A stretch of 9,708 nucleotides of DNA from a bacterium (GTDB lineage Bacteria > UBA9089 > CG2-30-40-21 > SBAY01), in assembly GCA_040757115.1 (NCBI GenBank), contig JBFLYA010000140.1, positions 1 to 9,708 on the forward strand. The letters run 5' to 3'. The translations under genes and the position numbers were made by a program. The notes under the pieces were generated by a model, which saw nothing but the letters and a program-made list of their open reading frames with translations, was not told where the DNA came from and did not search any database. How positions within the stretch are numbered: the stretch's first letter is position 1; each line of letters opens with the position of its first letter. Shown here one piece after another: positions 541 through 8,289 of this stretch.

Positions 541-564
541 AGGTTACAAAGGAGGGAACTAAAT

Positions 565-1797
565 ATGAAGTTTATAGCTGATTTTCATATCCATTCTAAA
601 TATTCACGTGCCACAAGCCCACAAATGGAGATACCGACTTTAAGTAAATATGCCAGACGAAAAGGGATAGCCTTAATGGGCACTGGTGATTGGACACACC
701 CTGTCTGGCTATATGAATTAAAAAAGGTATTAGAACCAGTTAGTTATGGGTTATTTAAGTATGAGGATACTTTTTTTATGCTCACCGCGGAGGTGTCTAA
801 TCTATTTAACCGGAAAGGTAAAGGGAAGAAGGTTCATAATATTATCTTTGCCCCATCTTTTGAGAGCGTTGAAAAAATAAACAGCCAGCTTGAAAAATAT
901 GGTGATTTAAGTGCTGATGGCAGACCAATGCTTTCCTTAGATGCAAAGAATTTGGTTAAAATAATCCTTGATATTGACCCTGATTGCTTTGTTGTTCCAG
1001 CACATGCCTGGACTCCCTGGTTTTCTGTATTTGGCTCTAATTCTGGATTTGACTCGGTAGAAGAGTGTTTTGAAGAAGAGGCACGAAATATCTATGCCTT
1101 AGAGACCGGCCTTTCATCTGACCCACCAATGAATTGGCGATTATCTGAATTAGACCAATATACACTTATCTCTAATTCTGATAGCCACTCTCCGGCTAAA
1201 ATAGGTCGAGAGGCAAATGCCTTTGATTGTGAGATAAATTACAAAGAAATAATTGATATTCTGAAAAGAAAGGATAGAAATAAATTTCTGTTCACCATTG
1301 AGTTCTTCCCGGAAGAAGGAAAGTATCATTATGATGGACACCGACCGTGTAATCTTAGATTTACACCTGCCCAAACGAAGACACATAATGGTATCTGCCC
1401 TTCCTGTGGTAAAAAAATAACGGTTGGTGTCGTCAATCGTGTCGAAAGATTAGCTGATAGACCCGAAGGATTCGTCCCGGAAAATCATATCCCGTGTAAG
1501 CACCTTATTCCATTAGAAGAAATAATAAGTAAGGTGACTAAAAAAGGCGTTGGCACAGCCGCAGTAGAAAATGAGTATTTGAAACTCACACAATCCCGAC
1601 ATACGGAATTTGATATTCTTCTCTATCTTTCTAAAGAAGAACTAATGCAATTTGTATCTAAAGAAATTCTTAGAGGCATACTAAATGTGCGAGAAAAAAA
1701 GGTGAATATCCTACCCGGCTATGATGGCGTTTATGGTGAAATAGATATACCATTAGAAGAAGAAAAAGAAGAAATAGTTCAATTAAGTCTATTTTAG
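565..1797 (+). CDS. Endonuclease Q-type PHP-domain DNA repair nuclease with C-terminal clamp-binding motif
   Basis: A 410-residue protein of the family often annotated as PHP-domain/UvrD-like and related to archaeal EndoQ, which cuts DNA 5' of deaminated bases and abasic sites. Visible PHP-type metal ligands are H8 and H10 (FHIHSKYS), then E76, H91, H147 (PAHAWTP) and D206/H208 (SNSDSH). A cysteine cluster follows: C262, C278-x2-C281 and C311, matching the EndoQ zinc-finger region. The chain ends with an acidic linker and QLSLF (406-410), the consensus bacterial beta-clamp pentapeptide. The ATG at 565 is chosen because GGAGGG lies eight bases upstream and the metal-binding core begins at once; the TTG at 490 would add 25 unsupported residues. 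The stop codon abuts the convergent cdsA stop with no gap. The family call is confident; substrate preference is inferred. Confidence 0.85.
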   Translation: MKFIADFHIHSKYSRATSPQMEIPTLSKYARRKGIALMGTGDWTHPVWLYELKKVLEPVSYGLFKYEDTFFMLTAEVSNLFNRKGKGKKVHNIIFAPSFESVEKINSQLEKYGDLSADGRPMLSLDAKNLVKIILDIDPDCFVVPAHAWTPWFSVFGSNSGFDSVEECFEEEARNIYALETGLSSDPPMNWRLSELDQYTLISNSDSHSPAKIGREANAFDCEINYKEIIDILKRKDRNKFLFTIEFFPEEGKYHYDGHRPCNLRFTPAQTKTHNGICPSCGKKITVGVVNRVERLADRPEGFVPENHIPCKHLIPLEEIISKVTKKGVGTAAVENEYLKLTQSRHTEFDILLYLSKEELMQFVSKEILRGILNVREKKVNILPGYDGVYGEIDIPLEEEKEEIVQLSLF

Positions 1798-4880: not shown

Positions 4881-5180
4881 TTATTTAAAAATCATAGTTA
4901 ACACTGCTCCAGTTACAGATAAGATTAGCGGGACAAATAAACCAATTACCCAATAAAAGAGATGGTCAATTTTACCTGAAATTCCCTCTATTCGTTTTTC
5001 GAATCCATCCATTCGTACTTCAAGGGTATCAATCCGTTGATTTATTTGTTGATTCCCACTTTTTATTAAATCTTCTAATCGTTGAATTTCTGCAACAAAC
5101 CTTTTCTCGCGTTCATCTATAAATCTATCATAATAAGGTGGAAGTGTATATTCTTTATAAGCTACTGATTCTCCTGGCAT
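4881..5180 (-). CDS. Small hypothetical protein: coiled coil plus one C-terminal membrane helix
   Basis: A 99-residue protein not recognised as a named family. Residues 19-73 are a charged amphipathic helix with leucine/isoleucine spacing (RLEDLIKSG...[18 protein letters not shown]) typical of a coiled coil. Residues 76-97 are a single membrane segment ([21 protein letters not shown]), leaving only K99 behind it, so it is probably a tail-anchored protein whose coiled coil faces the cytoplasm. The RBS AAGGAGGG is excellent and lies inside the end of tsf, and the gap to tsf is three bases, so it is very likely expressed with the operon. The layout resembles small phage XhlA-like or DUF1640-like coiled-coil membrane proteins, but that resemblance is only architectural. 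Finding a membrane gene between tsf and pyrH is unusual. Confidence 0.75.
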
Positions 5181-5807: not shown

Positions 5808-6659
5808 TTAATCTTCCACTATTTCTTCTTTTTCCTTGAGTGTTTCTTCCATAATACCTTTGTCTAATTCCTCATAGAATTGTGGGAGTAATTCTTCCTC
5901 TTCTTCTAACTTCAGAAATATTTTTTCCTCTTCTTCTTCTACTTGAGCCGCCTCTTCTTCAACTGGTAGCTTATCGGCTAATCTTTTACCTTCCATTATA
6001 CCATCGGCAATCACCGAGGCAATTAACTTCACCGAACGAATCGCATCATCATTACCAGGGATGCAATAATCTACTTCATCCGGGTCGCCATTGGTATCAA
6101 CAACGCCCACAATTGGAATGTTTAATCTTCTCGCTTCTAAAATAGCTATTTTTTCTTTTTTCGTATCCACAATAAATAGTGCCCCTGGCAAGGTTTTTAT
6201 CTCTTTAATCCCACCCAATAGAATTTCCAATCTATTCATTTCCTTTTTTAAAAGAGCCACTTCCTTTTTGGGTAATTTTTCAAATACCCCTCCTTCCTCC
6301 ATTTTCTTAATTTCATTAAGTCTTTTAATACTTTTCTTTACTGTCTCAAAATTAGTCAGAGTTCCTCCTAACCAGCGTTGAGTCACATACGGCATCTGAC
6401 ATCGAATTGCTTCTTCCATAACTACGGTTTGAATTTGTTTCTTTGTCCCAACAAATAAGACAGGCTTTTTTGTCTTAGCCGTTTCCTGAACAAAGCTATA
6501 TGCCTCTTTTAACCCTTTCATTGCCTTTTGAAGATTAATGATATGAATATCATTCCTCTCTGAAAAGATATAAGGTGCCATCTTTGGATTCCATCGTTGG
6601 GTTTGATGACCAAAGTGCACCCCTGCTTCTAAAAGTTGTTTCATTGTAATCGTCGTCAC
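5808..6659 (-). CDS. rpsB: 30S ribosomal protein S2 with long acidic C-terminal tail
   Basis: S2 binds the 30S head/body junction and recruits S1 late in assembly. At 283 residues it is longer than the usual 240-260. The core is standard: [50 protein letters not shown] and [13 protein letters not shown]. Residues 233-283 form an extension in which nearly half the residues are Glu/Asp, with several poly-Glu runs. GTG (6657-6659) is chosen as start because the perfect RBS AAGGAGG is 11 bases upstream and the N-terminus then aligns with E. coli S2. The ATG five codons later would be 26 bases from the RBS. It is the first gene of the minus-strand operon; the promoter candidate is at 6756-6784. 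Confidence 0.95.
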
Positions 6660-6852: not shown

Positions 6853-6867
6853 CTTATTAAATAATTG

Positions 6868-7103
6868 GTAAGCGTTCAGGTGGTGTAAGAAAAGGAGATA
6901 TGGAGATAAAGGAGATAAGGGGATATTATTAAAAAAATTGAAATTAGTAGAACTAATAGAAATTTATGGAAATTTGTTGTTTCCCACAATCAATTTCTAC
7001 CTATTTCTATAAATTTCAATCTATTTCTATTATCTTATCTCCATATCGTCCTTATCTCCTTATCCCCTTTCTTACACTTTTGATATATAGCCTGAACGGT
7101 TAC
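6868..7103 (+). mobile_element. IS66-type MITE, copy 1 (236 bp), between promoter and pcm
   Basis: Termini GTAAGCGTTCAGG (6868-6880) and the complement of CCTGAACGGTTAC (7091-7103) match at 12 of 13. They are flanked by the perfect 8-bp duplication AATAATTG (6860-6867 and 7104-7111). GTAA ends with an 8-bp duplication are the hallmark of the IS66 family. The interior is self-complementary: GGAGATA-type purine repeats at the left face TATCTCC-type repeats at the right, and AATAGAAATTT-type arms face their complements around TTTCCCACAAT. No ORF is present, so it is non-autonomous. About 95% identical to the inverted copy at 8020-8258. A further terminus-like sequence, GTAATCGTTCAAC, lies at 7112-7124 just outside the duplication. 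Confidence 0.88.
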
Positions 7104-7159
7104 AATAATTGGTAATCGTTCAACCCTGCCCATCAGACTGTACAAGGAGATTTTGTAAG

Positions 7160-7876
7160 ATGAACAAATATATTCTTTTCATAATTTTGCTTATGAGTTT
7201 AAACTTAATTTCCTGCCAGAAATCTACATTACCACCGAGTAAATACACATCTCTACGAGAACAAATGATTCAGGAACAGATTATCGCCAGAGGTGTATCT
7301 GACCAATTAGTCTTAAAGGCAATGCTAAAGGTAGAAAGGCATAAGTTTGTTCCAGATGAAGTAAAAGAAATGGCTTATATTGATAGCCCACTTCCAATAG
7401 GGGAAGACCAAACTATTTCTCAACCATATATTGTTGCCTTGATGACCGAGTTATTAGGGTTAAAAGGGGATGAGAAGGTGCTTGAAATAGGCACTGGTTC
7501 TGGCTATCAGGCGGCAATATTAGCCGAGATAGTCAAAGAAGTCTATACCATTGAAATCCTCAAACCTTTAGCTGATACTGCCCGCCAAAAACTACAAAAA
7601 TTAGGCTATAAGAACATCAAAGTTAAATGCGGAGATGGATATAAAGGTTGGGAAGAATATGCACCCTATGATGGGATAATAGTTACCTGCGCCCCAGACC
7701 ATATCCCACAACCACTAACAGAACAATTAAAAATAGGTGGCAGAATGGTTATCCCGGTTGGAGAATCATATCAAGTGCTTTTACTACTGACTAAAATATC
7801 AAATACACAATTTAGTCGTAAACCTATTATCCCTGTGAGATTTGTGCCTATGACTGGCGAGGGACAAAAAAGATAG
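7160..7876 (+). CDS. pcm: Protein-L-isoaspartate O-methyltransferase, predicted exported lipoprotein
   Basis: Repairs proteins by methylating isoaspartyl residues with S-adenosylmethionine. The methyltransferase core is clear: MIQEQIIARGVSD, DSPLPIGEDQTISQPYIVA (75-93), SAM motif VLEIGTGSGYQA (107-118), CGDGYKGW and the C-terminal RFVPMTGEG. Unusually, the 238-residue chain starts with a hydrophobic signal peptide and lipobox LISC with C19 (MNKYILFIILLMSLNLISC), so it should be a membrane-anchored lipoprotein outside the cytoplasm. The ATG at 7160 has AAGGAGA nine bases upstream. A TTG at 7109 would start inside the MITE target duplication and is rejected. The gene lies between two inverted MITE copies. 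Function of the core is near certain; export is a strong prediction from the N-terminus. Confidence 0.93.
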   Translation: MNKYILFIILLMSLNLISCQKSTLPPSKYTSLREQMIQEQIIARGVSDQLVLKAMLKVERHKFVPDEVKEMAYIDSPLPIGEDQTISQPYIVALMTELLGLKGDEKVLEIGTGSGYQAAILAEIVKEVYTIEILKPLADTARQKLQKLGYKNIKVKCGDGYKGWEEYAPYDGIIVTCAPDHIPQPLTEQLKIGGRMVIPVGESYQVLLLLTKISNTQFSRKPIIPVRFVPMTGEGQKR

Positions 7877-7879
7877 AGG

Positions 7880-8289
7880 GTAACTATTCAGCCACTGATT
7901 AACACGGATTAGCACGGATAAATAGCAGAGGGCAGAGGACAACAGAAGGAAAAACCTTCAGCCTAATTACGGACACGGCTCCCGGACACGATTCACGAAT
8001 TTTCCGTGTTTCATCCGTGGTAACCGTTCAGGCTATATATCAAAAGTGTAAGAAAGGGGATAAGGAGATAAGGGTGATATGGAGATAAGATAATAGAAAT
8101 AGATTGAAATTTATAGAAATAGGTAGAAATTGATTGTGGGAAACAACAAATTTCTATAAATTTCTATTATAGTTTCTACTAATTTCAATTTTTTTAATAA
8201 TATCTCCCTATCTCCTTAATCTCCACATCTCCTTTTGTTACACTACCTGAACGCTTACCATCCGTGTTCATCTGTGGCTGAACAGTTAC
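7880..8289. mobile_element. Older fold-back element with GTAA ends, interrupted by MITE copy 2
   Basis: The ends 7880-7907 and 8262-8289 are inverted repeats matching at 25 of 28, beginning GTAACTRTTCAGCCAC and running into ACGGATTA/ACACGG-type repeats. The complementarity continues further inward (CACGGATTAGCACGGA against TCCGTGTTTCATCCGTG). Removing the 239-bp MITE and one 8-bp duplication leaves a 163-bp element. The GTAA start again suggests IS66-type ends, but I see no clean target duplication (GATAGAGG against AGTGAGGG). It begins three bases after the pcm stop and ends immediately before the tgt RBS, so it fills the pcm-tgt gap. No gene is present in it. The interior at 7923-7950 carries a purine-rich GCAGAGGGCAGAGGA repeat. 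Confidence 0.7.
8020..8258 (-). mobile_element. IS66-type MITE, copy 2 (239 bp), inverted and nested
   Basis: Reverse-complement copy of 6868-7103, with a three-base length difference and roughly ten substitutions, most of them in one arm. Termini GTAACCGTTCAGG (8020-8032) and CCTGAACGCTTAC (8246-8258). The perfect 8-bp duplication CATCCGTG lies at 8012-8019 and 8259-8266, inside the older element at 7880-8289; this proves insertion into that element. It contains no ORF. A poor promoter-like pair (TTGTGG, 15 bases, TATAAA) points toward tgt but is not convincing. Confidence 0.88.

Follow-up and report, generated by a model that had tools for sequence, protein, structure and literature searches.

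The window, that is, the whole stretch of 9,708 nucleotides analysed here, contains on its forward strand an open reading frame that encodes a bacterial EndoQ, a lesion-specific endonuclease, and this identity is well supported (Table 1). Translation of the frame gives 410 residues with the C-terminus ...PLEEEKEEIVQLSLF, followed by a TAG stop codon at 1795–1797. The ATG at position 565 is preferred as the start codon to the upstream TTG at position 490, because a good ribosome-binding site, AAAGGAGGG, precedes it. A phage or plasmid origin of the gene was rejected, as a search of phages, plasmids and viral contigs gave no match.

Table 1. Features of the EndoQ gene and of the protein it encodes, with positions in the window
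Feature	Position	Strand	Evidence
EndoQ-family lesion-specific endonuclease, 410 aa	565–1797	+	PfuEndoQ match, fold, invariant catalytic residues
Ribosome-binding site, AAAGGAGGG-type	548–555	+	sequence; 9 nt before ATG 565
Zinc-knuckle region H259-x2-C262...C278-x2-C281	1339–1407	+	aligned to Pfu C249/C252/C268/C271
Acidic flexible linker LEEEKEEIV, residues 397–405	1753–1779	+	sequence; low pLDDT from residue 400
C-terminal clamp-binding motif QLSLF, residues 406–410	1780–1794	+	terminal peptide; conservation; TAG follows

The remainder of the window holds several further features. Upstream of the EndoQ gene, positions 295–470 are occupied by a repeated element of ~175 bp with inverted ends (GGAGATATGG...), of which about 25 near-full copies (88–98% identity) and many partial copies are present in the same genome; the element looks like a MITE or a REP-type sequence. 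A protein-L-isoaspartate methyltransferase gene (7154–7876, forward strand; PCMT, E 4.6e-68) specifies a lipoprotein-type signal, MNKYILFIILLMSLNLISC, which suggests that the enzyme is exported. Inverted repeat arms of ~240 nt (6866–7103 and 8020–8260), with blocks that are 98% and 93% complementary, lie around pcm, and a GGAGATA repeat is common to these arms and to the element at 283–339; pcm may be the cargo of a composite mobile element. On the reverse strand, a 99-residue open reading frame between tsf and pyrH (4881–5180), in which a coiled-coil-like part is accompanied by a hydrophobic segment at the C-terminus, gave no match in a Pfam search, and ribosomal protein S2 (5808–6659) bears a strongly acidic C-terminal extension of ~60 residues past the Pfam domain.

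The initial annotation had described the product of the frame as an EndoQ-type nuclease, and sequence match, fold and catalytic residues all bear this out. In a phmmer comparison, the window protein matches PfuEndoQ (5zb8) with an E-value of 1.5e-55 and residues 5–407 aligned. The AlphaFold model of the window protein, built with 32 homologues, has a mean pLDDT of 91 and matches the crystal structure of PfuEndoQ in Foldseek with an E-value of 8.5e-41 and a TM score of 0.87. Specifically, residues E76, H91 and H147 correspond to E76, H84 and H139 of PfuEndoQ, which are reported to be essential as catalytic metal ligands, while G182 and S184 correspond to G169 and S171 of the lesion pocket (PMC8307549); the former are invariant and the latter 100% conserved across 133 bacterial homologues. 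All four predicted zinc ligands are present in the alignment to the Pfu protein (H259, C262, C278 and C281); 98% of the bacterial proteins have His, not Cys, as the first of them, which makes the site His-Cys3 rather than Cys4. The NCBIfam model TIGR00375 (Endonuclease Q) also matches the window protein (E 2e-53, 182.1 bits), and its curated cut-off of 326.6 bits is reached neither by this protein nor by any genome of its phylum. Since none of the phylum's genomes passes, the cut-off suits archaeal and Bacillus-type members only, and whether a protein counts as an EndoQ in the broad sense is decided by the other features. On the strength of homology and the invariant catalytic residues, the window protein is expected to possess EndoQ activity.

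The protein ends in a short tail that, with its free C-terminus, reads EEKEEIVQLSLF. The translation agrees with the earlier claim that QLSLF constitutes the last five residues, with TAG directly after, and the acidic flexible linker proposed to precede it is likewise recovered. In the AlphaFold model, pLDDT falls below 50 over residues 400–410 and the tail is not packed against the protein core. Since residues 400–410 are predicted to be disordered, QLSLF should be accessible on a free tail.

A five-residue motif is short and could terminate a protein by chance. We searched the 4.3-Mb genome with a DNA pattern for Q[LF]x[LF]F-stop, using the reversed pattern as control, and obtained 39 matches for the former and 33 for the latter, so that the bare pattern is about as frequent as its control. 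The reading frames were checked for all stop-ending matches (30 loci and 6 further stretches, the other 3 ending in TGG), and the EndoQ gene is the sole match in the genome that terminates an open frame of more than 62 codons. This singularity argues against a chance match, and plain chance is refuted by the conservation of the motif at the exact C-terminus.

Relatives of the window protein were taken from 80 loci of one genome-collection scan, from 61 genomes of a relatives search, and from 132 matches in a 198-genome sample of another phylum, 90 of which were read as loci; the loci are the matches nearest the window protein, with distant EndoQs (Bacillus type and archaeal) lying outside the sample. 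The pattern Q..[LM][FLI] occurs within the last 20 residues in 101 of the 123 non-redundant standalone bacterial EndoQs, compared with a mean of 2.9 and at most 10 when the tails were shuffled 300 times and with 0.17% of internal windows, and in 96 of the 101 it forms the very last residues. The strict pattern Q[LMI].[LM]F is found in 51/123 (shuffle mean 0.19), and allowing F at position 4 gives 112 of 133 proteins with the motif. Across the 133 bacterial proteins, Q1, L4 and F5 are almost fixed while positions 2 and 3 are free, the pattern expected for the clamp-binding motif QxxLF (PMC12309361), and weaker variants such as QKTLF and QQSLF are common. In a 33-sequence alignment, F410 is 100% conserved and Q406 and L409 are conserved at 90% or above, whereas the length and composition of the linker are not conserved. 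Furthermore, the five motif codons differ from those of a genome of the same family (G002) by two synonymous changes only, while the linker carries an indel. Judged from the aligned sequences, purifying selection is shown to act on the motif. The alignment of bacterial homologues, proposed by the initial annotation as a check, thus finds the C-terminal motif conserved, and this conservation among relatives implies that the terminal peptide, which had been called a canonical clamp-binding motif, is functional.

Conservation is broad, with exceptions. About 15% of the standalone homologues lack the motif. In a genome of the same family (G003), TAA replaces the CAA codon of the motif glutamine, so that the tail reads V-stop-LNLF; either the motif has been lost recently here or the sequence contains an error. 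The tails of three members of the same order (G005, G006 and G007) end without the motif, as do those of about a dozen scattered other EndoQs. In one genus (g92), a protein ending in QMELF (L184) stands beside four that stop earlier without the motif (L176, L177, L179 and L188), a pattern of recent motif loss. On a tree of the 133 bacterial sequences, motif presence changes 16 times, chiefly at single tips. We read this as the mark of an old feature that has probably been lost repeatedly, the tree being a quick one in which the direction of change is unproven. The motif-less members of the order and the stop at the motif glutamine in G003 indicate that the motif is dispensable in some lineages. 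Compensation by a neighbouring UvrD gene bearing the motif was considered and rejected, as there is no such gene downstream in the loci checked; nor does any other neighbouring gene take over the motif in the motif-less EndoQ loci checked. These losses lend some weight to the idea that QLSLF is a functionless vestige, and the initial annotation had regarded close homologues lacking the pentapeptide as evidence against its claim; such homologues do exist (G003 and G005–G007), but most of the family keeps the motif. With 101 of 123 tails carrying it against 2.9 expected, and with the phenylalanine invariant, we consider it very improbable that QLSLF ends the protein by chance or as a functionless remnant. 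This distribution, broad retention with scattered losses, would appear to be new.

The preferred reading, a functional clamp-binding tail, calls for a clamp in the same genome. A normal DnaN protein of 365 residues (G000:C260, E 2.2e-84) is encoded there; its gene adjoins dnaA and its sequence ends in MPVRT. The identical peptide QLSLF, at the free C-terminus of PolC, has a KD of 3.8 µM for B. subtilis DnaN and a higher affinity for that of E. coli (PMC12309361). In Archaea, TkoEndoQ binds PCNA through a C-terminal PIP box with a KD of 55 nM, and PCNA stimulates cleavage by way of this tail (PMC4858679), in agreement with the earlier statement that archaeal EndoQ binds PCNA through a PIP-type motif. 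The tail might instead bind another repair or replication protein, or the core of the enzyme itself: the evidence examined consists of sequence, and position 2 of the motif varies (L, K, M, Q) more widely than in the strongest clamp consensus. Against such a partner stand the retention of Q1, L4 and F5, which are the positions reported to be important for clamp binding (PMC12309361), the use of the same tail by the archaeal orthologue for the archaeal clamp (PMC4858679), and the model, in which no packing of the tail on its own core is seen. A partner other than the DnaN pocket is therefore unlikely, and the window EndoQ very likely docks on the DnaN clamp.

Docking of this kind would fit into a simple repair scheme. 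PfuEndoQ and B. pumilus EndoQ nick DNA 5′ of deaminated bases (uracil, hypoxanthine, xanthine) and of AP sites, producing a 3′-OH. The window enzyme would recognise the same bases and AP sites and nick 5′ of the lesion, leaving a 3′-OH. Its disordered tail would place QLSLF within reach of the hydrophobic pocket through which the DnaN ring binds proteins, and would so tether the nuclease to DNA that still bears clamps. A DNA polymerase and a ligase could then take over the nick on the same ring and carry out strand-displacement repair. That the window enzyme binds DnaN, is stimulated by it and passes on the nick in this way is inferred.

Roughly one in four of the EndoQs that were read has a length of 930–1160 residues and carries a UvrD-type helicase after the EndoQ part (profile matches to PF00580, E 2.5e-67, and PF13361, E 9e-42). 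These fusions cluster on the tree, with at least 3 changes compared with 33 in shuffles. The motif is found near the new C-terminus in 39 of 42 non-redundant fusions, and 27 of 47 fusions also keep a QxxL/M-type motif at 417–433, the old EndoQ end, ahead of the Walker A motif of the helicase. Fusions with both an internal and a terminal clamp-type motif include L192, L065, L084 and other fused loci. In 12 genomes, the terminal motif is present in 11/11 complete fusions and in 0/13 complete unfused UvrD/PcrA-type helicases (Fisher p 4e-7), and therefore goes with EndoQ function and not with helicases in general. That the motif has moved to the new C-terminus amounts to a natural experiment that favours function. 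A literature search found no paper on an EndoQ-UvrD fusion, with a mention in a 2017 B. pumilus paper being possible, and the fusion with its relocated motif appears to be new.

Taking the two forms together, we lean slightly towards a reading in which the two-peptide fusion is a clamp-tethered nick-and-unwind machine and the window enzyme is a simpler form of the same widespread pathway. In particular, EndoQ would nick 5′ of the lesion, the 3′-to-5′ helicase would load on the intact strand at the nick, and the helicase would displace the lesion-bearing strand, a step with which its polarity would be compatible. A clamp-coupled pathway of this kind would be widespread in bacterial phyla that have received little study. 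Descriptions of bacterial EndoQ usually present it as rare; in a large sample of one phylum, 132 of the 198 genomes have it, and further copies come from records that bear the names of many other phyla. With the clamp tail nearly always present, repair of deaminated bases that is coupled to the clamp and needs no glycosylase may be common in bacteria.

The motif itself has been noticed before. Shiraishi 2016 reports β-clamp consensus motifs at the C-termini of bacterial EndoQs and suggests testing them (PMC4858679), and a literature search found no clamp-binding test of any bacterial EndoQ. The clamp link put forward in the initial annotation is thus supported, although not as a novelty; the novelty of the motif is low, and what the present analysis adds is the breadth of its conservation and the helicase fusions. 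Like the window protein, the Bacillus and Desulfovibrio EndoQs described in that work are bacterial and have a C-terminal β-clamp consensus, and they belong to other lineages (PMC4858679). B. pumilus EndoQ is active, according to a 2017 report in Biosci Biotechnol Biochem as it is cited in PMC6202378.

The archaeal EndoQs of T. kodakarensis and P. furiosus share with the window protein the family, the fold and a clamp peptide that terminates the protein after a short tail; unlike it, they have a PIP box for PCNA (QRSITEFL, QRTLLQYI) and a Cys4 zinc site, and binding and stimulation are experimental (PMC4858679). The initial annotation had taken the two kinds of tail to be convergent. We give about even odds to the alternative that both tails descend from a single clamp-binding peptide, which was adapted to each clamp, and are not a convergent gain, considering that in both domains the peptide sits in the same place, closing the protein behind the same last strand of the core, and that archaeal QRTLLQYI and QRSITEFL (PMC4858679) follow a Q-x-x-hydrophobic logic related to that of QLSLF. 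An ancestral tail fits equally well as convergence, and the choice bears on the word convergent, not on clamp docking.

Comparable C-terminal clamp peptides are known from proteins of other kinds. NucS/EndoMS, likewise a repair endonuclease, carries a PIP motif at its C-terminus in Archaea and the clamp motif [E/K][L/Y][T/R]LF at the same end in Actinobacteria, the latter shown to be necessary for clamp stimulation; it differs from the window EndoQ in its unrelated nuclease fold and its mismatch substrate (PMC8228993). B. subtilis PolC has the identical QLSLF at a free C-terminus and differs in being a polymerase whose binding was measured directly (PMC12309361). IS1634 transposases bear a C-terminal β-clamp motif in bacteria and a PCNA-type motif in their archaeal relatives, differing from EndoQ in being mobile-element proteins (PMC4549789).
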